Shown: positions 5,903 to 21,005 of the stretch, one piece after another
Layout of the letters: every line of letters begins with the position of its first letter
How positions within the stretch are numbered: position 1 is the stretch's first letter
Virus record (IMG/VR): IMGVR_UViG_3300006990_000125
Coordinates: 1 to 27,112 of that record
Reading direction: 5' to 3' (one strand)
Length of the DNA: 27,112 nt
Source of the DNA: a virus
Translations under genes and position numbers: made by a program
The notes under the pieces: model-generated
Seen by the model: only the letters and a program-made list of their open reading frames with translations
Databases searched by the model: none
What the model was told of the DNA's origin: nothing

Positions 5903-6379
5903 ATGGCATATTCGGGCAGATACACAGTAAAAAATCCAAAGAAGTATAAAGGTGACCATACAAACGTCACTTATCGCTCTCTTTGGGAAAAACACGCATT
6001 CAAGTGGTGCGACAACAACTCTGACATCATTGAGTGGTCAAGCGAAGAGGTTGTCATACCATACTTATACGAGGTCGACAAAAGATATCATAGATATTTC
6101 ATGGACTTGAAGATTAAGTTTCAAAATGGCAAGACTGTGCTTGTTGAGATAAAACCAGATAAAGAGACACGTCCACCCGAGGGCGCGAAGCGAACAAAGC
6201 GATATATCAACGAAGCATTCACTTATGTTAAGAACCAGAACAAATGGGAAGCGGCTCATGAATACGCACAGGATAGAGGTTGGGAATTCTGGATATGGAC
6301 AGAAAAGAAAGAACCGTTGAAGTCTATTATTCCCAAATCAACAAAACAGTTAAAACCGTTCAAGAGGCGTAAGAAATGA
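5903..6379 (+). CDS. 4: Head completion protein gp4
   Basis: The 158-aa product aligns along most of its length with T4 gp4 (150 aa): MAYSGRYTVKNPKKYKGD, YRSLWEKHAFKWCD, WSSEEVVIPY, RYFMDLKIKF, LVEIKPDKET and NEAFTYVKNQNKWEAA. The family has an endonuclease-like fold (E in WEKH, D in YFMDL, E-x-K in VEIKP) and acts on filled heads before tail joining. The start is fixed by AGGG at 5895-5898 and the conserved MAYSG N terminus. It is the first gene of the plus-strand late operon, and its stop overlaps the next ATG by four bases. Confidence 0.93.
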   Translation: MAYSGRYTVKNPKKYKGDHTNVTYRSLWEKHAFKWCDNNSDIIEWSSEEVVIPYLYEVDKRYHRYFMDLKIKFQNGKTVLVEIKPDKETRPPEGAKRTKRYINEAFTYVKNQNKWEAAHEYAQDRGWEFWIWTEKKEPLKSIIPKSTKQLKPFKRRKK

Positions 6380-7038
6380 GTGATTTTGATATATGGATGA
6401 TAAGGGTCAAAGATAATGACAAGTCCGAGACATATGCGAAATATTGTGCAAAGAGTTGGACAGATGCTGGCTTTGAAGTAAACTTCTTTGATGCTGTGAC
6501 TCCTGACACACTACACCTTGGTAAGCATTTAGACTTTGACAAGAAACACAAACCCGCAGAGAAGGGTTGTTTCATCAGTCAGTATCTTCTATGGAAGAAA
6601 TGCTATGAAGAAGACCGACCTATTCTCGTTCTTGAGCATGATGCATATCTTGAAAATCCTGAGATGATTATCTACAATCCAGGTCTTGCAATGCAGTATC
6701 TAGGTCAGCATTGCATGGAAGCAGTTCTCTATAATCCATGGTGGGCAAAGGAGATGTGCAAACTTGCAGAAACTCTGTCAGACTTGAGAGGACCTTTCGG
6801 TATGGTAGAGCATTTTCTAGGCATTCCTGTCTCGGGTCATAGTCGATATGGTCTTCTATCTAGACATGGAGTTCCTCATACTCGCTTTCTAGGACCTAGG
6901 GCTCCTGTCAAGCATGTCATCATACCTGAACTAGGAACATCACTAGAACACAGTAAAGGTAAGACTTCTGACAGAATTGTGACAGAGCAAGCAGATTTAT
7001 TTAAAATAGTTCCATTAACAGTCGCTCTAAAAGCATAA
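6376..7038 (+). CDS. GT25-family-like glycosyltransferase
   Basis: The 220-aa product resembles the GT25 (LPS-type) family: an N-terminal strand DIWMIRVKDNDKSETYAKYC, then a conserved core KGCFISQYLLWKKC, and RPILVLEHDAYL where EHD stands in for the usual acidic EDD metal-binding motif. A late segment HSRYGLLSRHGVPHTRF may bind the acceptor. The family transfers a hexose from a nucleotide sugar to lipooligosaccharide or protein. It has an ATGA overlap with gp4 and precedes a virion-type gene, so it should be made late with virion proteins. Two relatives (19618-20271 and 20268-21005) carry the same VFEHD-type core on the other strand. Confidence 0.72.
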   Translation: MSDFDIWMIRVKDNDKSETYAKYCAKSWTDAGFEVNFFDAVTPDTLHLGKHLDFDKKHKPAEKGCFISQYLLWKKCYEEDRPILVLEHDAYLENPEMIIYNPGLAMQYLGQHCMEAVLYNPWWAKEMCKLAETLSDLRGPFGMVEHFLGIPVSGHSRYGLLSRHGVPHTRFLGPRAPVKHVIIPELGTSLEHSKGKTSDRIVTEQADLFKIVPLTVALKA

Positions 7039-7046: not shown

Positions 7047-7631
7047 ATGGCAAGTAATATATTCAATAGACTAGAACTACAGGCATTTCGTGCTGGTATC
7101 ACTCCACGCACTAAAGAAAGTCGTGCATGGTTTCAAAAGAAGGCATCTAATCTACGCTCTATCAATCGTGAAGCGTTGATGAAAGAAGAGCCACTGAAGC
7201 GTGGTCGTAAAGAAATCATTGGTTCGATGCAGATGTTTACCTACGACCCAAAGACGAAAGATACACTACCTTACTATGATGCGTTTCCTCTTGTTGTCGT
7301 AGTTGGTCCTGCAGAAGGTGGATTCTATGGACTTAATCTTCACTATCTACCACCAATTCTTCGTGCAAAGATGCTTGATGGTCTGATGAGTATTGCTACA
7401 AGTAAGAATAGCGACGATGCAAAGTTTAGACTTTCATATAGTATGCTACAGCGAAGCACCAAACTTAAATACTTCAAGCCATGTTTCAAACATTATTTGA
7501 ACAAACATGTGACAAGTCAGTTTGCTGAGGTTCTTGCACCCGAATGGGAGATTGCTACATTCTTACCGACTGCTGATTTCCGTAAGAGAAATAGAAATAA
7601 GGTATATTCAGATAGTAGAGAGATGATTTAA
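7047..7631 (+). CDS. Conserved T4-superfamily late protein, possibly gp2-like DNA end protector
   Basis: The 194-aa basic product has a core I recognise as conserved in T4-like phages but cannot tie firmly to a T4 gene: MFTYDPKTKDTLPYYDAFPL, GFYGLNLHYLPPILRAKMLD, KHYLNKHVTSQF and EWEIATFLPTADF. The N terminus (ARGITPRTKESR-like basic helix) is rich in Arg and Lys, compatible with DNA or portal contact. It lies between the gp4/glycosyltransferase pair and a tail tube-type gene, which suggests a virion or head-completion role. A gp2-like DNA end protector is my best guess from memory of marine phage annotations. The stop overlaps the next ATG by one base. Confidence 0.5.
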   Translation: MASNIFNRLELQAFRAGITPRTKESRAWFQKKASNLRSINREALMKEEPLKRGRKEIIGSMQMFTYDPKTKDTLPYYDAFPLVVVVGPAEGGFYGLNLHYLPPILRAKMLDGLMSIATSKNSDDAKFRLSYSMLQRSTKLKYFKPCFKHYLNKHVTSQFAEVLAPEWEIATFLPTADFRKRNRNKVYSDSREMI

Positions 7632-8350
7632 TGGCATTCGAGATAGACACATTAAAAGCCGAGATTAGTCAAGGCAGTGGAATGGCTATTGGTAATCTGT
7701 ATCATGTTCAGTTACCTACCTTCACTGCTCAGAATCTTGACATTACGGTTCCTTCGATGAGTCTGCTATGTAAAGCGGCTACACTTCCCGGCAGACAAAT
7801 TCTGTCAGCAGATAAACAGATGGGTATCTACAACACAAAGATTGCATATGGCTTTGCGGCTGAAGATGTAACTCTTACGTTCTATGCTCTGAATGACTTT
7901 GAGATTCGTAAATATTTTGAAGTGTGGCAAGCCGCCGCAGTCAATCATCTGACTGGCGAAGTAGGCTATCTAGACGAGTATACAGCACCGGTTACAATTA
8001 GTCATTTGAAGAAAGAGGTCGCGTTTCCTATCTTCAAAAAGAAATTGTTTGATACTTCAAAGGTACCTGCTTTCATTCGTGGTAGATTACCACGCATCGG
8101 TCCTCTCGACTTAGCACAAGGTGAGTTTGACCTTGACTTATTTGCGGGCGGTGGAATCACTTATTCTTTGACACTAAATAAAGCGTATCCGACGACACTA
8201 CAAGCGATTGAGTTGGGAAATGAGGGACAACTGTTAGAGATTACAGTTCAGTTGTCTTATAAAAATTGGGAGAGTAAAACAAAAGGAAGACCAAGTCTCA
8301 CAGAAGAGATTACGGGAAGTCTTCTTGGCGAGTTGCTCGGCAGATTATAA
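7631..8350 (+). CDS. 54: Tail tube-fold protein, probably baseplate tube initiator gp54
   Basis: The 239-aa product has the gp19-like tube fold signature. NLYHVQLPTF and SLLCKAATLPGRQIL correspond to the T4 gp19 segment with CKATALP; DVTLTFYALNDFEIRKYFEVWQ is followed by a closing strand LLEITVQLSYKNWES. It is longer than tail tube gp19 (163 aa) because of an insert at about residues 120-185 (DTSKVPAFIRGRLPRIG, DLDLFAGGG), and single-copy placement beside the hub assembly genes favours gp54, which starts the tube on the baseplate. A second gp19-type tube protein cannot be excluded. The N terminus overlaps the upstream stop by one base. Confidence 0.68.
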   Translation: MAFEIDTLKAEISQGSGMAIGNLYHVQLPTFTAQNLDITVPSMSLLCKAATLPGRQILSADKQMGIYNTKIAYGFAAEDVTLTFYALNDFEIRKYFEVWQAAAVNHLTGEVGYLDEYTAPVTISHLKKEVAFPIFKKKLFDTSKVPAFIRGRLPRIGPLDLAQGEFDLDLFAGGGITYSLTLNKAYPTTLQAIELGNEGQLLEITVQLSYKNWESKTKGRPSLTEEITGSLLGELLGRL

Positions 8351-8362
8351 TTGGAGTAAATT

Positions 8363-9067
8363 ATGGCATTACCAAAGTTAAATGAAAATTTAAAATATGA
8401 AATGACTGTCCCTTCGTCTGAAAGGGCAGTTACCTATAGACCTTATCTGGTCAAAGAAGAGAAAATTCTTTTACAAGCGTTTGAGTCACAAGACCAGAAA
8501 CTTGCTATGAGAGCAATGGTCGACACGATTGTGGCGTGTGTAAATGAACCGATTAGTTCAACTGACTTATCGACATTTGATGTTGAATATATGTTTACAC
8601 AAATTCGTGCAAAGTCAGTAGGTGAAAAATCACAACTAGAGTTCAAGTGTGAGAAGTGTGAAGAGATGACTCCAGTGTCAATTGACTTGACATCTATTCA
8701 GATTGAAAAAAGTGATGTGAGTAATATCATTGAGGTTACTGATAACATTAACATCGAGATGAGATATCCAACATATGATAGTTTTGTCAAGAACTTTAAA
8801 GAAGGTATGAGCGAGTCCGAGTTTGGTTTTCTTATGCTCGAAGATTGTATTGTAGCAGTCATGACAGAAGACGAGCGATTTCTTGCATCTGATGTGAGCA
8901 ACAAAGAATTGAATGACTTTATCAACTCAATGACAAATGCTCAGTTTGAAAAAGTAGGAGAGTTCTTGAGAACTGTTCCTGTAATGAAAAAAGAAGTTGA
9001 GTTTACATGTGCGTCCTGTCAGCACGAAAATACAATTACGCTAGAAGGACTCCAAGATTTTTTTTAG
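8363..9067 (+). CDS. 26: Baseplate hub protein gp26 / tail assembly chaperone, zero-frame product
   Basis: The 234-aa product belongs to the T4 baseplate gp26 family (MALPKLNENLKYEMTVPS, VKEEKILLQAFESQD, AMRAMVDTIVACV, LSTFDVEYMFTQIRAKSVGE). It has two CxxC pairs (CEKC near 95, CASC near 216), a likely zinc ribbon. The start is set by GGAG at 8352-8355. The reading frame ends D-F-F-stop on a run of eight T at 9058-9065, immediately followed by an open -1 frame with a conserved-looking domain (see 9064-9252). In T4, gp26 and gp51 assist hub assembly; here the gene directly precedes the tape measure, the position of tail assembly chaperones in other tailed phages. Confidence 0.85.
   Translation: MALPKLNENLKYEMTVPSSERAVTYRPYLVKEEKILLQAFESQDQKLAMRAMVDTIVACVNEPISSTDLSTFDVEYMFTQIRAKSVGEKSQLEFKCEKCEEMTPVSIDLTSIQIEKSDVSNIIEVTDNINIEMRYPTYDSFVKNFKEGMSESEFGFLMLEDCIVAVMTEDERFLASDVSNKELNDFINSMTNAQFEKVGEFLRTVPVMKKEVEFTCASCQHENTITLEGLQDFF
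9058..9064 (+). promoter_or_regulatory. Probable -1 ribosomal frameshift site (T TTT TTT)
   Basis: In the gp26 frame the codons are GAT TTT TTT TAG. The heptamer T TTT TTT allows both P- and A-site tRNAs to re-pair after slipping back one base. The next zero-frame codon is a stop, which slows the ribosome. An SD-like AGAAGGA lies 8 nt upstream (9043-9049), similar to the stimulator in E. coli dnaX. I see no strong downstream hairpin. Confidence 0.75.
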
Positions 9068-9252
9068 TATGCCTCTCACATGATACATTGGTCAATCACT
9101 TTAAGACCAACTTCGCGTTGATGCAACACTTTAATTATTCATTGTATGATATAGAGACAATGATGCCGTGGGAAAGAGAGATATACTTAGTATTATTACA
9201 AGAATATCTTAAAGAACGAGAAGAAGAAGCCAGAAGACAAGAAATGGGATAA
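9064..9252 (+). CDS. -1 frame extension of gp26 (gp51/GT-like chaperone domain)
   Basis: After a -1 shift at 9058-9064 translation would continue for 62 codons, making a 296-aa fusion. The extension reads LVCLSHDTLVNHFKTNFALM then QHFNYSLYDIETMMPWERE and a charged C-terminal helix. SHD-L, NF-LMQ, a SL-dIE-MMPWERE-IY segment and a terminal EEEARR helix resemble the second domain of tail assembly chaperones and gp51-type proteins of marine T4-like phages. No plausible independent start exists: the only upstream ATG (9007) would translate the gp26 zinc-ribbon region in a nonsense frame. The stop is 3 nt before the tape measure ATG. Confidence 0.72.
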   Translation, partial: LVCLSHDTLVNHFKTNFALMQHFNYSLYDIETMMPWEREIYLVLLQEYLKEREEEARRQEMG

Positions 9253-9255
9253 CCA

Positions 9256-10875
9256 ATGGCCGAAGCAACAATAGGACATCTAATCGAAGAATTGAAAATG
9301 TCTACTCAGGCGCAGATAAACTTTGCGGGCGAAGATACACGGGAAGTTGTTAATTCTGTTAATAATCTAACCGATGTCTTCACTGATTACTTCAAGATAT
9401 TGAAAGGTCAAGAAGGCGATAAACTCGAAAAAGAGCGTGAAGAGAAGAAGCCAAAGGCCGCTGCCGCAGAACTTCCTAACTTTGGTTCCATGGTTAAAGA
9501 CGCAGGTGGTTTTGGCTTTCTTGGTATTGTCGGTGCTATTGGCGCGGCACTTGCTGGACTTGCTGTAGGCTTTCTTGATGGTATTCGTGATACTTTCAAA
9601 CTCATTACACCTACATTCATAAAGAAATTATTTAGAAGTAAAGTATTTCAACCAGTAATACGATTCTTCGATGCGTTTGGAGATATCTTCCGTAAAGCAG
9701 GAACCGGTCAAATACTGAAAGGTGACACTTTCAAGGTGTTTGGTAGATTTACTGCTACAATGCAGGATATTGCTACAGGGATTACTAAATTTCTTAAACC
9801 ACTTGTAACAGCAAAAGATGCTGTGTTCAATGGTTTTGCTAGAATGGGAAACTTCTTCTCTTCATTAAAGCGACAGTTCAAATTATTCTTTTTAGCCAGT
9901 GGTGTTATTCGTTCTCAGATTAACAATCTGAAAAGTATATTTTCTATATTTGGTTCAACCGCACAAACAGGCGGTAAGATTTTTCAAGGACTGTTCAGCG
10001 TAATTAAACCATTCTTTGGTATATTTGCAAGATTAGGTAAATTTCTTGGCGGTCCAATTACAGTTGCTATATTCGGTATCATTGATTCTTTCATGGGAGC
10101 ATTTCAAGGCTTCAAAGAAGAAGGGTTTCTTGGCGGCATTCTTGGCGCAATTGGTGGTCTTGCTCGTGGTATTATCGGTATGCCTCTTGACTTGTTGAAA
10201 AGTGGTATAAGTTTCATTGCAGGCAAACTTGGATTTGAGAACTTCTCGAATATGCTTGACAGTTTCTCATTCAGTGATATGATTTTTGGTATGTTTATGA
10301 AAGTTGCGAACATAGGCAACGAAATCATCAGTAATCTGTTTGGTGGATTTGAAGATGGTTTTGGCGCTGGTATGAAACAGATGCTCAAAACATTGATGAT
10401 TTATGTTAAGAGAATGTTGTTGTTTCCTGTTGCAATACTGGCTGGTGGTGTTGCGGCACTTGCGGCTGCATTGCCTGGCGGTAAGAGTCCGCTAGAAGCC
10501 TTCAAAGAAACGTTTAGTAAAGTTATTACAGTGGGTGAAGGTTCTGCCCCTACAGCAGTACCTAGTGAACAGACATCTGGCGGCGGCGAAGAAGGTGAAG
10601 TGCCTCAGACGAAAAGAAAAAGAGTTAGTCCACTAGAGTTCAACAAAGCGAGAATTGAACGACTAGAAAGAATGTCACAAAAAGGTGACCTTTCTTCAAG
10701 ACAAGCAGACGAACTTGAGAGAAGAAGAAAAGAAGTCGAGAGAATGGAAAAACAGCAGACTGGTGGTATGACTGCTGTGAATGCTCCTACAACAAACAAC
10801 AATACTACGACCAACAACAATACAACCGCATCAGGTTCTTCGTCAGCAACAGACCGCAAAGCACCCGAAGGATAA
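9256..10875 (+). CDS. 29: Tail length tape measure / baseplate hub protein, gp29-like
   Basis: The 539-aa product is close to T4 gp29 (590 aa), the tape measure that also sits in the hub. An N-terminal charged helix (to about residue 72) is followed by long hydrophobic helices (GFLGIVGAIGAALAGLAVGF, GGILGAIGGLARGIIG, LLFPVAILAGGVAALAAALP) typical of tape measures that may enter the host membrane. Residues about 460-505 form a basic coiled coil (KARIERLERM, ERRRKEVERMEK). The tail of about 25 residues is a low-complexity Asn/Thr/Ser stretch (NNNTTTNNNTT). The upstream gp26 frameshift gene fits the usual chaperone-then-tape-measure order. A terminator begins 3 nt after the stop. Confidence 0.78.
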   Translation: MAEATIGHLIEELKMSTQAQINFAGEDTREVVNSVNNLTDVFTDYFKILKGQEGDKLEKEREEKKPKAAAAELPNFGSMVKDAGGFGFLGIVGAIGAALAGLAVGFLDGIRDTFKLITPTFIKKLFRSKVFQPVIRFFDAFGDIFRKAGTGQILKGDTFKVFGRFTATMQDIATGITKFLKPLVTAKDAVFNGFARMGNFFSSLKRQFKLFFLASGVIRSQINNLKSIFSIFGSTAQTGGKIFQGLFSVIKPFFGIFARLGKFLGGPITVAIFGIIDSFMGAFQGFKEEGFLGGILGAIGGLARGIIGMPLDLLKSGISFIAGKLGFENFSNMLDSFSFSDMIFGMFMKVANIGNEIISNLFGGFEDGFGAGMKQMLKTLMIYVKRMLLFPVAILAGGVAALAAALPGGKSPLEAFKETFSKVITVGEGSAPTAVPSEQTSGGGEEGEVPQTKRKRVSPLEFNKARIERLERMSQKGDLSSRQADELERRRKEVERMEKQQTGGMTAVNAPTTNNNTTTNNNTTASGSSSATDRKAPEG

Positions 10876-14502: not shown

Positions 14503-14772
14503 ATGACAGACGAAATATTCGATTTTGGATTTACAATTGTAGATGAAGCTGAACTAGACGCAGTTCAAGCGGCTCAACAAAGTGTTGCGGCTGTCTCTAC
14601 ATCTGTAGATGAAACAAAAGAAAAACTAGATAAACTCTATAATGCGATACAACCATTATTGAATAATCTAAAAGCCAATCCTGATAAAGACTATATTCTT
14701 TGGCCGAATCGTCTTGAGAAAGTAGAGTCTTTTGAAGACTTCATTCAAGACATTTATACAGGTAAGAAATAA
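14503..14772 (+). CDS. Conserved T4-superfamily small protein, unknown function
   Basis: The 89-aa acidic product starts MTDEIFDFGFTIVDEAELDA. It has a central coiled-coil helix (TSVDETKEKLDKLYNAIQPL) and ends with DYILWPNRLEKVESFEDFI. This layout, especially the FDFGFT N terminus, the LDKLYNAI-PLLNNL helix and the WPNR-EK motif, is familiar from small conserved proteins of marine T4-like phages. Its role is not known to me; a virion or assembly role is inferred from the late promoter and the late operon it heads. There is no visible ribosome-binding site. The stop overlaps the next ATG by one base. Confidence 0.7.
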   Translation: MTDEIFDFGFTIVDEAELDAVQAAQQSVAAVSTSVDETKEKLDKLYNAIQPLLNNLKANPDKDYILWPNRLEKVESFEDFIQDIYTGKK

Positions 14773-15590
14773 TGTATCTATTTCCTCAGCCCAGAGAATT
14801 TGTAGAAAAGGGTGTTCTCAGTAAGTATATTCATGGTGAGAGTATTACCGAGTTTACAGAAGAACTCAGTGCGGCTATGGGCAGAAGAAGTTTTGAAGAG
14901 TGGGTATCATTGCTATCATATGGTGGTCAAGTAGCCGCACATATTACTTGTTCTAAGTATGAGAACATACTTGTCTGCACGAGTTATGATAATTCCAAAT
15001 CAACTGTTATAACAGACAAGAATGACAACTACAACATATCAAGCGATGCGGGAACTCATATGTTTCCTATAGTCTGGAAACGTATGGAGTGTGCAGGTAA
15101 CGTATATGTTACTAAGCCTTCTGTTACTAGTTCTATATTTGAAAAAGGATATGAAGCACTTGGCGTAAAAACTCTTCGAGTAGACGATTACTATCATATA
15201 GACCATCCAAGACCTTATAACATAATCAATGCTCCCGTGGCTAAGTTTGATGCTGTTATCTTGCTGACACCTAAAAAGATTAATCCTAATAACAATAAAT
15301 TCAAAATTGAAGAGATTAAAAAAGATTTTGCTAGATACTGTAAAGAAGATTTCGATATCATTACATTATTCGAGCCAGATTATAATACACAAATTGTAGG
15401 AAGTAAAAAGAAAAAAACCAGTGATGTTATTCAATTTACTTCTGCACAAATTAACCCAAACAATTATGAAGATAAATATAGAGAAATTAAATATGATGTG
15501 ACAGGCAAGCGTCATGTCGTTCAATCGATAGGATATTTTAATCTTCAGAGATTTTACAATAAAGTTGTAAATCAATTTAGGATTTTTTAA
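14772..15590 (+). CDS. Unrecognised protein, related to its downstream neighbour
   Basis: The 272-aa product starts MYLFPQPREFVEKGVLSKYI. I do not recognise a family. The N-terminal half contains HITCSKYENILVCTSYD and MFPIVWKRMECAGN. The stretch at about residues 155-200 (AKFDAVILLTP, then KIEEIKKDFARYCKEDFDI) lines up with the next protein (VTFDAVYFHGI, SIEEIRQDFSAYI). The C terminus ends NLQRFYNKVVNQFRIF. Placement behind a late promoter suggests a virion or assembly protein. Base composition is more AT-rich than its neighbours. Confidence 0.55.
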   Translation: MYLFPQPREFVEKGVLSKYIHGESITEFTEELSAAMGRRSFEEWVSLLSYGGQVAAHITCSKYENILVCTSYDNSKSTVITDKNDNYNISSDAGTHMFPIVWKRMECAGNVYVTKPSVTSSIFEKGYEALGVKTLRVDDYYHIDHPRPYNIINAPVAKFDAVILLTPKKINPNNNKFKIEEIKKDFARYCKEDFDIITLFEPDYNTQIVGSKKKKTSDVIQFTSAQINPNNYEDKYREIKYDVTGKRHVVQSIGYFNLQRFYNKVVNQFRIF

Positions 15591-15592
15591 GC

Positions 15593-16519
15593 ATGACAGA
15601 TACATCAAGACAAGTTATTGAAGAAATTATAAGTTCTACTGACTCATCGTTCTCAACGCGAAATCGTGTTTTGGGTAACACCGAAATGAAAAATATTTCA
15701 ATCAACATATTTCGGACATTAAAAAATCATGCACTGCTTTATGGAAAAGACTATTCTTATTTCGAAGCGGTGAATGTCTGGGGCTCGTTTATGCATGTTG
15801 CTCATGGTGTGTTAATGAGAAACATGATGAAACTCAGAGGTCGTAGAAACGTTTTGTATGTTCATAACTTTGCTGAAGCATCGGGTGACGACGACCCAGC
15901 ATTCTATGATACGATAGGGCAGTTTCAGCCACTAAATGTCAATAGAGTTCTTGCTCCCGCAATCTCAAATCATCTTAATTATTCAGATTTAAATTTTTAT
16001 CCAGTATATTCTGGAACTGACACAAACTTTACTAAAGCTGTATTTGATGAAGCGGGTCTTACTAGCGTCTCTGCGACAGGTCAGTATAGACTTGGAGACA
16101 ATATCGTATTATCAAATATTCCCGAAGGTGTAACGTTTGATGCTGTGTATTTTCATGGTATTGAACGAGCCGAAGATAGACTATACTCTATCGAAGAAAT
16201 TCGTCAAGACTTTTCTGCTTACATTACAGATAATTGTCAATTCTACGATTACTATGAACAACAAGCGGCTCGGGAAGCAATGTTAAACGCAAGCACATCT
16301 GATTTCGAAGTAGAGGCTAGATGGTCAAGCACACCTAGAAATAATAAAGAGATTTTTGAATATGCATTTAGGGCTGTTGCTCCTACAGGTGACGTTGATG
16401 CAACTGTTGCGACTGCAAGAGAACTTCAAGTTGATATTAAAGAACAATATGTAGAAAACGTAAAATTTCTTCACGGTCAAGCAAAAAATCTTGGCGACAA
16501 AATTCTTAAGGTATTCTAA
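15593..16519 (+). CDS. Unrecognised protein, related to its upstream neighbour
   Basis: The 308-aa product starts MTDTSRQVIEEIISSTDSSF. The N-terminal region (SINIFRTLKNHALLYGKDYS, HGVLMRNMMKLRGRRNVLYV) is helical and basic. Residues about 180-225 share FDAV...IEEIR-DF-AY with the upstream protein. The C-terminal helix reads DIKEQYVENVKFLHGQ. I do not recognise a family. It follows the upstream gene by 2 nt and ends in a one-base overlap (TAATG) with the kinase gene, so the three are probably made together late in infection. Confidence 0.55.
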   Translation: MTDTSRQVIEEIISSTDSSFSTRNRVLGNTEMKNISINIFRTLKNHALLYGKDYSYFEAVNVWGSFMHVAHGVLMRNMMKLRGRRNVLYVHNFAEASGDDDPAFYDTIGQFQPLNVNRVLAPAISNHLNYSDLNFYPVYSGTDTNFTKAVFDEAGLTSVSATGQYRLGDNIVLSNIPEGVTFDAVYFHGIERAEDRLYSIEEIRQDFSAYITDNCQFYDYYEQQAAREAMLNASTSDFEVEARWSSTPRNNKEIFEYAFRAVAPTGDVDATVATARELQVDIKEQYVENVKFLHGQAKNLGDKILKVF

Positions 16520-17199
16520 TGCTAAAGTTTAAACAGTTTCTCAGCGAGGGTGTAGATGACCCCGCAATCTTCAAAGCAGTGTTTCTTGCTGGCGGACCTG
16601 GGTCTGGTAAATCGTTTATCGTAGGTAAGACTGGTCTTCCTGTTCTCGGAATGAAAGTCGTCAACTCTGACGATGCATTTGAGAATGCGATGAAGAAGGC
16701 TGGTAAAGCAATGACTCCTGATGAAATCTTCTCTGATGAAGGTCAAGAGATTCGCGGTAGAGCAAAAGCGTTGACTGGTAAGAAACAAGCAATGTATATC
16801 ACAGGTCGTCTTGGTCTAGTCATTGACGGAACTGGTAAGGACTTTGCAAAGGTTAAGAAACAAGTCAAAACGCTTCAAGATTTAGGTTATGATACCACAA
16901 TGATTTTGGTGAACACTGACCTTGATACTGCAATCGAAAGAGATAAACTGAGGTCACGCTCACTTGGTAAGAAAAAGGTCACCGATTACTGGAAAACAGT
17001 TCAGAGCAATATCGGTGCTTTTCAAACCATGTTCGGTAAAAAGAACTTTATAGTGGTTGACAACTCAACTGGTAAAGATTATCAGAAAGAAACGCTTCGT
17101 GCGTATCGTGATATCAAGAAGTTTATAAGTAAAGAACCTGATAATCCACTTGCAAAGAAATGGATTAAACAAGAGCGGGCAAAGAAAAAGAGAACCTAA
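16519..17199 (+). CDS. Zeta-toxin-like P-loop kinase with capsid-targeting-like N terminus
   Basis: The 226-aa product has a Walker A loop (AVFLAGGPGSGKSFIVGK, about residues 20-37), then KVVNSDDAFE as in zeta/PezT-type kinases where the Asp activates the substrate, VIDGTGKDF as the following strand, and RDKLRSRSLGKKKV as an Arg-rich lid. The family phosphorylates UDP-sugars or related small molecules; the substrate here is unknown. The first ten residues, MLKFKQFLSE followed by Gly, match the pattern of the T4 internal-protein capsid targeting sequence (MKTYQEFIAE) and the prohead protease rule L/I-x-E. This predicts packaging in the head and trimming to Gly11. The C-terminal tail is highly basic (KKWIKQERAKKKRT), fitting storage with DNA. 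Confidence 0.78.
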   Translation: MLKFKQFLSEGVDDPAIFKAVFLAGGPGSGKSFIVGKTGLPVLGMKVVNSDDAFENAMKKAGKAMTPDEIFSDEGQEIRGRAKALTGKKQAMYITGRLGLVIDGTGKDFAKVKKQVKTLQDLGYDTTMILVNTDLDTAIERDKLRSRSLGKKKVTDYWKTVQSNIGAFQTMFGKKNFIVVDNSTGKDYQKETLRAYRDIKKFISKEPDNPLAKKWIKQERAKKKRT

Positions 17200-17776: not shown

Positions 17777-17852
17777 TGGCGAACTCACCAGGACTCGAAC
17801 CTGGAACGCAAGATTAGAAGTCTAGTGTGATATCCAGTTTCACCATGAGTCC
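17777..17852 (-). tRNA. tRNA-Arg(UCU)
   Basis: The 76-nt minus-strand sequence folds as a full cloverleaf: acceptor GGACTCA/TGAGTTC with one G-T pair, D arm GTGA/TCAC with GG in the loop, anticodon loop CTTCTAA with anticodon TCT, T arm CCAGG/CCTGG with loop TTCGAGT, and an encoded G-CCA end. The anticodon stem has a single T-T mismatch at the second pair. It reads AGA codons, which are abundant in the window's genes and rare in many bacterial hosts. A consensus promoter lies 14 nt upstream. Confidence 0.95.
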
Positions 17853-19621: not shown

Positions 19622-20271
19622 GGTTCAATAATCTCAAATTTCTCGTTAAACTGATGCTTTGCAACACAACCATCGGGTCTCTGAATCGTAGAGAACGTAT
19701 CTAACACCATAGCAATAAATGGATTATGTTCTTGAAGCCATGGCATATTTTTAAGATTTAAAAAGATGTCTGTTGGTTGTGCTGTGACAGTAGCCTCGTC
19801 AAGCAACCTCTTTGCTCCACTAGGCTTCAGCAAATATGCATGAGCGCCAGGGAAGTATTCTTTTGTTGAAAGACGATTGACGCCAAGTTTAGGTGGATTC
19901 TTCCAGTCACCATAACTTGGTTGACCAATATTAATCATGTGTGTATACGGAATATAATCAGGCATAGGCTGAATAAACACAACATCATGCTCAAAGACAG
20001 CAATCTCTTCGTTGTTCTCTGCACAGTATCTCCATAGAGAGTGATGTGATAGAAACGTTGACAAGCAAGGCTTGAAGCGAGAGAACTTATTGTCCTTGAA
20101 TGTTCGTGTTCTAATGTTATGTTCTTCTGCGATTGCAAGGATATCATCACGCGGTGTTGTGGCTTTCCAATGCTCGATGTCAAATCCAATCTTTTTACCT
20201 GAAGCGATACAACGCTTTGCGGCTTTGACAGACTTCTCATTTTCTTCGATTGTTATTACAAATGCTTTCAT
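19618..20271 (-). CDS. GT25-like glycosyltransferase
   Basis: I choose the ATG at 20271, which makes an ATGA overlap with the upstream gene and starts the product (217 aa) at MKAFVITIEENEKSVKAAKR, the expected first strand of the GT25 family. The core reads KPCLSTFLSHHSLWRYCAEN then EIAVFEHDVVFIQPMPD. The C-terminal half has FPGAHAYLLKPSGAKRLLDE, the conserved GT25 segment that closes the donor site. The upstream 22-codon extension would overlap the neighbouring gene and adds no conserved sequence. It is related to the genes at 6376-7038 and 20268-21005. Confidence 0.78.
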   Translation of the reverse strand: MKAFVITIEENEKSVKAAKRCIASGKKIGFDIEHWKATTPRDDILAIAEEHNIRTRTFKDNKFSRFKPCLSTFLSHHSLWRYCAENNEEIAVFEHDVVFIQPMPDYIPYTHMINIGQPSYGDWKNPPKLGVNRLSTKEYFPGAHAYLLKPSGAKRLLDEATVTAQPTDIFLNLKNMPWLQEHNPFIAMVLDTFSTIQRPDGCVAKHQFNEKFEIIEP

Positions 20272-21005
20272 CGTGTTGTGGTTGATTTCAACCCCTTCTG
20301 TATCTCTGTGTAGTATGGATATACAACTTGAAGCCATGGGAAGAACTGCTTACACATCACAGCATCATTCGGCCACATTCCTACTTCTCTTACTTTATCT
20401 AGCAGTTTCTTAGCGGCGGTTGGAGTAATCAGGTATGCGCTGTTTCCAGCAAGACCTTGAGGTAAATTAGGGTCACTCGGTCCATCAACAGAAGGAACTT
20501 GAGATAATCCATCTTTAGTTGATATCTTCTCATGAAATACACGAGACTTTCGTGTAGCACCAATCGGATTGTTAAGCCCTATTATACCACCTTTGAACTC
20601 ATTTGTCAAGACATCTTTTTCTTTGAACTGGCGTATCAACTTCGCATCATGCTCAAATACAACGATTGGTTCGTCTCTACTAATAGTCTCTTGCCAGCAT
20701 CTCATATGACTTACCATACACGCAATGCGATTAGAAAGATTTTCTGTCTTATAATGATGTAGTGTCATTCCACTTTTCAAGTCAACACCATCTTGAGACG
20801 CTTTAGTTGGATAAGTCCATGCTAGACCTGTCGTATCAATATGGTCAATCTTCTTTAAGTCACTCTCAATTGTTCCTGGAACTGTTGCAGGAAAAACAAT
20901 TGGCTCAATCTCAGACTTTGTTGTTTTAATTGATTCGATGAGACTTCGAGTTGCAATCGTAGATTGATGATGATTGATAAGTGATATGATATAGCCGCGA
21001 ATCAT
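20268..21005 (-). CDS. GT25-like glycosyltransferase
   Basis: The 245-aa product starts MIRGYIISLINHHQSTIATR. Family signals are NRIACMVSHMRCWQETI, EPIVVFEHDAKLIRQF and NSAYLITPTAAKKLLDKV, the same three blocks as in the following gene. The EHD motif again replaces the usual EDD. A P-rich segment near residue 165 (VPSVDGPSDPNLPQGL) may form the acceptor loop. The ATG overlaps the upstream stop (ATGA). A perfect sigma70 promoter lies inside the gene (20581-20609) and would transcribe the downstream half of the operon. Confidence 0.8.
   Translation of the reverse strand: MIRGYIISLINHHQSTIATRSLIESIKTTKSEIEPIVFPATVPGTIESDLKKIDHIDTTGLAWTYPTKASQDGVDLKSGMTLHHYKTENLSNRIACMVSHMRCWQETISRDEPIVVFEHDAKLIRQFKEKDVLTNEFKGGIIGLNNPIGATRKSRVFHEKISTKDGLSQVPSVDGPSDPNLPQGLAGNSAYLITPTAAKKLLDKVREVGMWPNDAVMCKQFFPWLQVVYPYYTEIQKGLKSTTTR
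20581..20609 (-). promoter_or_regulatory. Consensus sigma70 promoter inside a GT25-like gene
   Basis: Minus strand: -35 TTGACA (20604-20609), 17-nt spacer ending TGG, -10 TATAAT (20581-20586). All twelve hexamer positions match consensus. It lies mid-gene and would drive the second GT25-like gene, the GT8-like gene, thermonuclease and the GNGPS gene. Confidence 0.78.

Follow-up and report, generated by a model that had tools for sequence, protein, structure and literature searches.

A probable −1 frameshift linking a gp26-type tail chaperone to a gp51-type domain in a T4-like marine phage

Introduction

In a stretch of viral DNA of 27,112 nucleotides, here called the window (IMG/VR virus record IMGVR_UViG_3300006990_000125, positions 1 to 27,112), a gp26-type gene ends on a run of T, and a second reading frame, displaced by −1, crosses its stop codon and continues towards a candidate tape measure gene. 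The question raised by this locus is how the second frame comes to be translated. A preliminary description of the DNA, made from its letters alone, read the arrangement as a probable programmed −1 frameshift that joins gp26 to a second chaperone domain. This reading is supported by the recurrence of both the slip site and the −1 frame in relatives, by the dN/dS of the extension, by the lack of a conserved start codon and by the exclusion of a sequencing error, and we consider it very likely that a single locus in this T4-like marine phage encodes a tail chaperone of the lambda G/GT type by way of −1 frameshifting.

A conserved −1 frameshift in the tail assembly chaperones of long-tailed phages was reportedly described by Xu, Hendrix and Duda in 2004. 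This work is summarised in a paper that presents G–GT frameshifting as widely conserved in long-tailed phages, with T4 as the exception (PMC5009743), and a review of the T4 tail places gp26 and gp51 among the hub assembly chaperones (PMC3004832).

Results

Layout of the locus and fold of gp26

The short, G-like form of the chaperone, a protein of 234 residues with two CxxC pairs, is encoded on the plus strand at 8363–9067. It matches the Pfam profile PF12322 (T4_baseplate) with E 8.1e-58 and 196.1 bits against a curated cut-off of 24.5, and the PHROGs family phrog_150 with E 2.3e-59, covering profile positions 5–232 of 282. This is the one PF12322 match within the 27-kb record, which may be a fragment. 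The clear upstream neighbour of gp26 is a tail tube family protein (7631–8350, plus strand; phrog_45, E 8.3e-29). On the other side, 3' of the TAA that ends the −1 frame, an ATG at 9256 opens a candidate tape measure protein of 539 residues (9256–10875, plus strand), which matches the tape-measure profiles phrog_3827, phrog_4200 and phrog_305 only weakly (E 0.003–0.04) and has its best match in phrog_27688 (E 8.4e-14), a family of no known function. The annotated putative tape measure of HTVC008M occupies a similar place, one small gene further downstream.

Elsewhere in the window, two family 25 glycosyltransferase genes (PF01755) are found at 6376–7038 and 20268–21005, and one of them is flanked by the head closure gene and the DNA end protector gene. 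An ATPase resembling AAA_33, Zeta-toxin and polynucleotide kinase proteins is encoded at 16519–17199, and the two open reading frames before it (14772–15590 and 15593–16519) match no PHROGs or Pfam family at E 0.001. A single tRNA-Arg gene with anticodon tct lies on the minus strand at 17777–17852, beside the right-half gene cluster.

An AlphaFold model of gp26 was built from 45 sequences and has a mean pLDDT of 90.2. The two best alignments of its N-terminal domain, each over 85 residues, are to 3fgx (Z 8.1, rmsd 3.4) and to 2ob9, the HK97 tail assembly chaperone (Z 7.4, rmsd 3.6), where a Z below 8 can, for this structural alignment tool, reflect a common arrangement; the next-best row has Z 3.2. 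With Foldseek alone, 2ob9 ranks eighth (E 0.31, probability 0.96) and no row reaches E 0.001, and a search of PDB chains by sequence gives no match to gp26 at E 1. The case for an HK97 chaperone-like fold in the modelled N-terminal domain is good without being overwhelming, and such a fold agrees with the position of gp26 upstream of the candidate tape measure gene.

A conserved heptamer at the end of gp26

Direct reading of the 3' end of gp26 gives GAT (9056–9058), TTT, TTT and the zero-frame stop TAG (9065–9067), as the preliminary description had it, with a run of eight T at 9058–9065. The slippery heptamer T_TTT_TTT occupies 9058–9064 within this run, and the stop codon, likewise borne out by the sequence, abuts its 3' end. 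A −1 slip on the heptamer would lead into an extension at 9064–9252 (62 codons, followed by the stop TAA at 9250–9252); recomputation of the product gives the same 234 + 62 = 296 residues and the same junction, QDFFLVCLSH, as had been proposed.

The comparison drew on 184 loci: 160 from IMG/VR, 23 from named phages, and the window. Six loci that are cut short were left out (the heptamer is visible in five, and the sixth stops before the end of the gene), and the remaining 178 were collapsed at 90% nucleotide identity to 122 non-redundant loci. A slip site was scored where T_TTT_TTN occurs in the phase of the zero frame (in-phase TTTTTT) within the last 15 codons of gp26. Such a site is present in 176 of the 178 loci and in 120 of the 122 non-redundant ones, so that the T run is conserved across relatives; the two without it are Vibrio phage K493 and Salmonella phage Mansal. 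As a control, we took other ATG open reading frames from the same contigs, called mechanically on both strands with a minimum length of 150 codons; 3 of 434 carry such a site at their end. Within the rest of gp26 it turns up at 9 of 26,993 codon positions.

The seventh base of the heptamer varies (T in 74, C in 38, A in 7 and G in 1 of 120), a freedom that the X_XXY_YYZ rule permits; one of the loci scored as A, L162, has a run of nine T in which the later of two heptamers was taken. The zero-frame stop follows the heptamer immediately in 71 of 120 relatives and after 3 nt in 46, together 117 of 120. In all 120 the codon before the two Phe slip codons ends in T, and in all 120 the first Phe slip codon is TTT. 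Elsewhere in the same genes, GAT makes up 70% of Asp codons, AAT 64% of Asn codons, AGT 79% of AGT/AGC codons and TTT 67.5% of Phe codons. The slip codons are thus frozen, in genes that otherwise make frequent use of synonymous alternatives. As the sequences are related, counts are quoted here instead of probabilities. The codon, dN/dS and folding statistics count related sequences as independent.

The −1 frame as a protein

The −1 frame is open from 57 nt 5' of the heptamer, through the gp26 stop, to the TAA at 9250–9252. Its product, searched as 9067–9252, matches phrog_634, the gp51 "hub assembly catalyst" family, with E 1.8e-24 at positions 59–116 of 121, and phrog_150 with E 2.2e-6 at positions 236–281 of 282, just after the part of that profile matched by gp26. 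The proposed gp51/GT-type domain is therefore recovered, with the qualification that it corresponds to the C-terminal (T) domain of T4 gp51 only. A Pfam match of the extension to Stealth_CR2 (E 0.0057) lies under the cut-off of that family and was taken as chance.

Among 519 pairs that are 70–97% identical, the extension has a dN/dS of 0.11 in the −1 frame; with the other frame applied to this DNA, the value is 1.05. The differences are distributed over the codon positions as 6174/2843/10982. Judged from this pattern of substitution, the −1 frame is evolving as protein, and the conservation of the frame in relatives accords with selection at the protein level.

Alternative explanations

If the C-terminal domain were instead a separate small protein, its translation would be coupled to that of gp26 or would begin at a weak start that overlaps the 3' end of the gp26 gene. 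An open reading frame of its own is annotated in this frame in 18 of the 23 named phages (four of the others list no gene for the domain, and one lists an open reading frame in another frame), but the annotated starts in these 18 scatter over 12 offsets, 2–89 nt downstream as counted from the first base of the gp26 stop, and many fall inside the conserved domain. A joined gene is annotated in none of 29 annotated regions. The claimed lack of a start for the extension holds in so far as no conserved start is found: the open −1 stretch 5' of the heptamer is without ATG, GTG or TTG in 115 of 122 relatives, no −1-frame ATG lies within 60 nt after the heptamer start in 72, and no start of any kind lies upstream or in the first 30 nt in 58. 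As a statement about the window itself it fails, since an ATG at 9007 opens an 81-codon open reading frame on the plus strand (9007–9252) that overlaps gp26, with a TTG at 9088 inside it; neither start is conserved in relatives, and the frame opened by the ATG is regarded as incidental. Entry from upstream is impossible in 31 of 122 relatives, where a stop in the −1 frame directly adjoins the T run on its 5' side. An ATG overlaps the gp26 stop in five of the 23 named phages (S-CRM01, BUCT608, RHph_I1_9, Cr30 and AIR2), where coupled initiation may add to or replace frameshifting. A separate protein would leave the frozen T_TTT_TTN unexplained, and in T4 the two domains are fused. We consider this alternative very unlikely.

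Slippage of the polymerase on the T run, producing mRNAs in which the two frames are fused, finds some basis in the eight-T run of 62 of 120 relatives (the window included), which is long enough for some polymerase slippage. However, 45 of the 120 have only six T, the seventh base being C, A or G, and as such runs keep the phase of the heptamer and the proximity of the stop, tandem tRNA slippage fits better; the transcriptional explanation appears extremely improbable. Homopolymer runs are also generally error-prone, and the true gene might in principle be one continuous frame split by a sequencing or assembly error. The same split is seen in isolates and in many contigs, and runs of six, seven and eight T all keep the frames apart; because the T run recurs in independent contigs and isolate genomes, we regard such an error as excluded for practical purposes. 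The −1 frameshift remains the preferred reading. Against it weighs the lower shiftiness of U_UUU_UUU compared with A_AAA_AAG in E. coli constructs (PMC5009743).

Possible stimulators of slippage

The Shine–Dalgarno-like AGAAGGA noted in the preliminary description is confirmed at 9043–9049 on the plus strand, 8 nt 5' of the heptamer, and is a possible stimulator. Of 120 relatives, 85 carry an SD-like 5-mer in the 26 nt that precede the heptamer, and in 81 of these 85 the spacing is 8–10 nt. Pairing with the anti-SD sequence is stronger than the average over synonymous shuffles in 89 of the 120 (mean −6.5 versus −5.2 kcal/mol). The signal is partly a consequence of a conserved Leu-Glu-Gly sequence; the Glu codon at the motif is GAG in 42 of 61 cases.

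Downstream of the heptamer, 51-nt windows that start at +9 to +24 fold better than their synonymous shuffles across the 120 relatives (mean z −1.3 to −1.5). The effect falls to z −1.0 at +30, about −0.4 at +36 to +60 and −0.3 to +0.2 from +72, and control windows in gp26 give −0.2 to −0.4. The downstream fold of the window itself is unexceptional against dinucleotide shuffles (z −0.96 to −1.36). It includes a predicted 6-bp hairpin, TTGGTC/GACCAA (9088–9110, plus strand), as another possible stimulator; this begins 23 nt after the heptamer, and downstream frameshift stimulators usually lie 5–9 nt after the slip site. A small and weak possible hairpin directly 3' of the gp26 stop (9068–9082, plus strand) is seen in close relatives, with two-sided changes in one of its five pairs (4 cells) and the innermost pair broken in 8 of 18.

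The register of the downstream hairpin differs between clades, and RNAalifold finds no structure common to all relatives among 114 gap-free sequences; a search of 8900–9300 against Rfam matched nothing. In the 114 sequences a 9-pair hairpin beats slid registers, and its covariation score is reached by 8 of 500 shuffles; it thus beats shuffles modestly and fits only some clades. A pairing between the SD-like motif and a downstream CCTCT, suggested by 18 close relatives, was also considered; native partners pair barely better than swapped ones across 120 relatives (mean −8.46 versus −8.28, sd 0.22), and the pairing is therefore not claimed. In the same test the downstream side pairs better than its own synonymous shuffles (−7.19).

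A separate observation concerns codon choice at the beginning of the extension. Of 108 relatives, 95 use CTC or CTT for the Leu of the conserved −1-frame Leu-Ser-His (9073–9075 in the window), although TTA or TTG is in the majority at four of the five other mainly-leucine columns among the first 40. This bias may reflect a constraint at the RNA level.

Comparison with T4 and copy number in named phages

T4 gp26 and T4 gp51 are both PF12322 proteins. T4 gp51 aligns over 172 columns with the profile of the marine gp26 proteins (E 1.9e-6) and continues in one frame into the C-terminal domain (phrog_634, E 1.2e-23). T4 gp51 thus consists of a gp26-like domain followed by the C-terminal domain, and the window would encode G and GT from one gene where T4 uses two. 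The suggestion that a T4-like gp26/gp51 pair uses frameshifting here is accordingly right about the signal and needs correction about the genes, as there is not a pair but one gene that would give both forms.

Of 29 named complete records, two have two PF12322 copies (T4 and Aeromonas phage ZHF) and 27 have one. In T4 and ZHF the heptamer is absent and the C-terminal domain is fused to the second PF12322 gene. T4 gp26 encodes Phe-Phe at the slip position as TTC TTT, without a heptamer, and ZHF gp26 has no such site. Of the 27 single-copy phages, 24 carry the heptamer. With the two-copy phages lacking it and most single-copy phages carrying it, frameshifting and gene duplication look like alternative routes to a short and a long chaperone, a pattern and not a proof, given only two two-copy genomes; by the same comparison, T4 looks like a derived lineage. 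phrog_634 is found in 25 of the 29 genomes, being missed at E 0.001 in K493, BUCT608, Mansal and bering.

The single-copy phages without a heptamer are Mansal and bering (both Ackermannviridae) and K493 (unclassified in its record); the regions concerned are L178:1001–1804, L187:701–1507 and L175:983–1723. All three keep a C-domain-like open reading frame in the −1 frame after gp26, without the T6 heptamer, and they are counted against the frameshift. Their gp26 genes end in ATT TTC ATT TAA or CTT TTC AAG TAA.

Discussion

The proposed frameshift is supported by the conservation of the heptamer, the selection on the −1 frame, the lack of conserved starts, the likeness of the gp26 fold and the mirror arrangement in T4. 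In the proposed mechanism, most ribosomes would stop at the TAG at 9065 and release the 234-residue gp26, the G form. A minority would slip back by one base on T_TTT_TTT and read on to the TAA at 9250, giving a 296-residue fusion, the GT form, that carries the gp51-type C-terminal domain. Slippage would perhaps be helped by the adjacent stop, by the SD-like motif 8 nt upstream and by the downstream hairpin. On the lambda model, coating of the tape measure protein would fall to the G part, and recruitment of tail tube subunits to the T part. We infer the occurrence of slippage, as well as its efficiency, its stimulators and its role in assembly.

As for lambda gpG/gpGT, a short form and a rare −1 fusion would come from one gene with a heptamer near its 3' end, placed before the tape measure gene (here a weakly matched candidate). 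The heptamer T_TTT_TTN and the PF12322 sequence family set the present system apart from that of lambda, as does the extra C-terminal half of gp26 with its CxxC pairs. With T4 gp26/gp51 the locus shares the same two domains, gp26-like and gp51 C-terminal; in T4, however, the short and long forms are two paralogous genes without a heptamer at the end of gp26, whereas here one gene would suffice together with a −1 signal. The −1 signal of the dnaX type combines an internal SD about 10 nt 5' of the heptamer A_AAA_AAG with a strong and close hairpin. The present site is similar in having an SD-like motif about 10 nt 5' of a slippery heptamer, but it is a U-run, and the hairpin is clade-specific and more distant.

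For phage Adele (Vandenendeviridae / Andersonviridae), a −1 frameshift has been proposed on a poly-T motif with which the short chaperone gene ends (PMC12846349). The two systems have in common the poly-T at that position and a C-terminal domain hitherto annotated separately; the one in Adele differs in phage family and in its GTTTTT motif, and the available part of that paper makes no mention of PF12322 or gp26 (PMC12846349). PRFect cites Vladimirov, Gautam and Davidson 2022 for T4-like phages with a short gene and a fused long gene (PMC10274946, PMC10885494), and a 2025 paper refers to Vladimirov 2022 on poly-T slippery sequences in the chaperone genes of T4-like phages. Frameshifting in T4-like phages generally is possibly already covered in print. 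With the signal in 24 of 27 single-copy named phages, the putative mechanism is neither unique to this phage nor strongly novel.

A wider reading can also be put forward, with about even confidence. The T_TTT_TTN frameshift would be ancestral in a wider T4-like group, taken here as Kyanoviridae including pelagiphages, together with Rhizobium, Stenotrophomonas, Caulobacter, Acidovorax and several Straboviridae phages, and the separate 'gp51' genes of cyanophages would be artefacts of annotation. In T4 the 26/51 pair would be derived, a duplication having taken the place of frameshifting before the slip site decayed (TTC TTT in T4 gp26), while clade-specific hairpins and the constrained CTC/CTT Leu codon would tune the ratio of the two forms.

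Most single-copy relatives examined, marine cyanophages and pelagiphages included, keep a canonical frameshift signal, and public records split or leave out the long chaperone. The conserved cassette is short and can be tested directly in a reporter. The interest of the locus lies in the generality of the frameshift signal and in T4 as the seemingly derived case, more than in the window alone.
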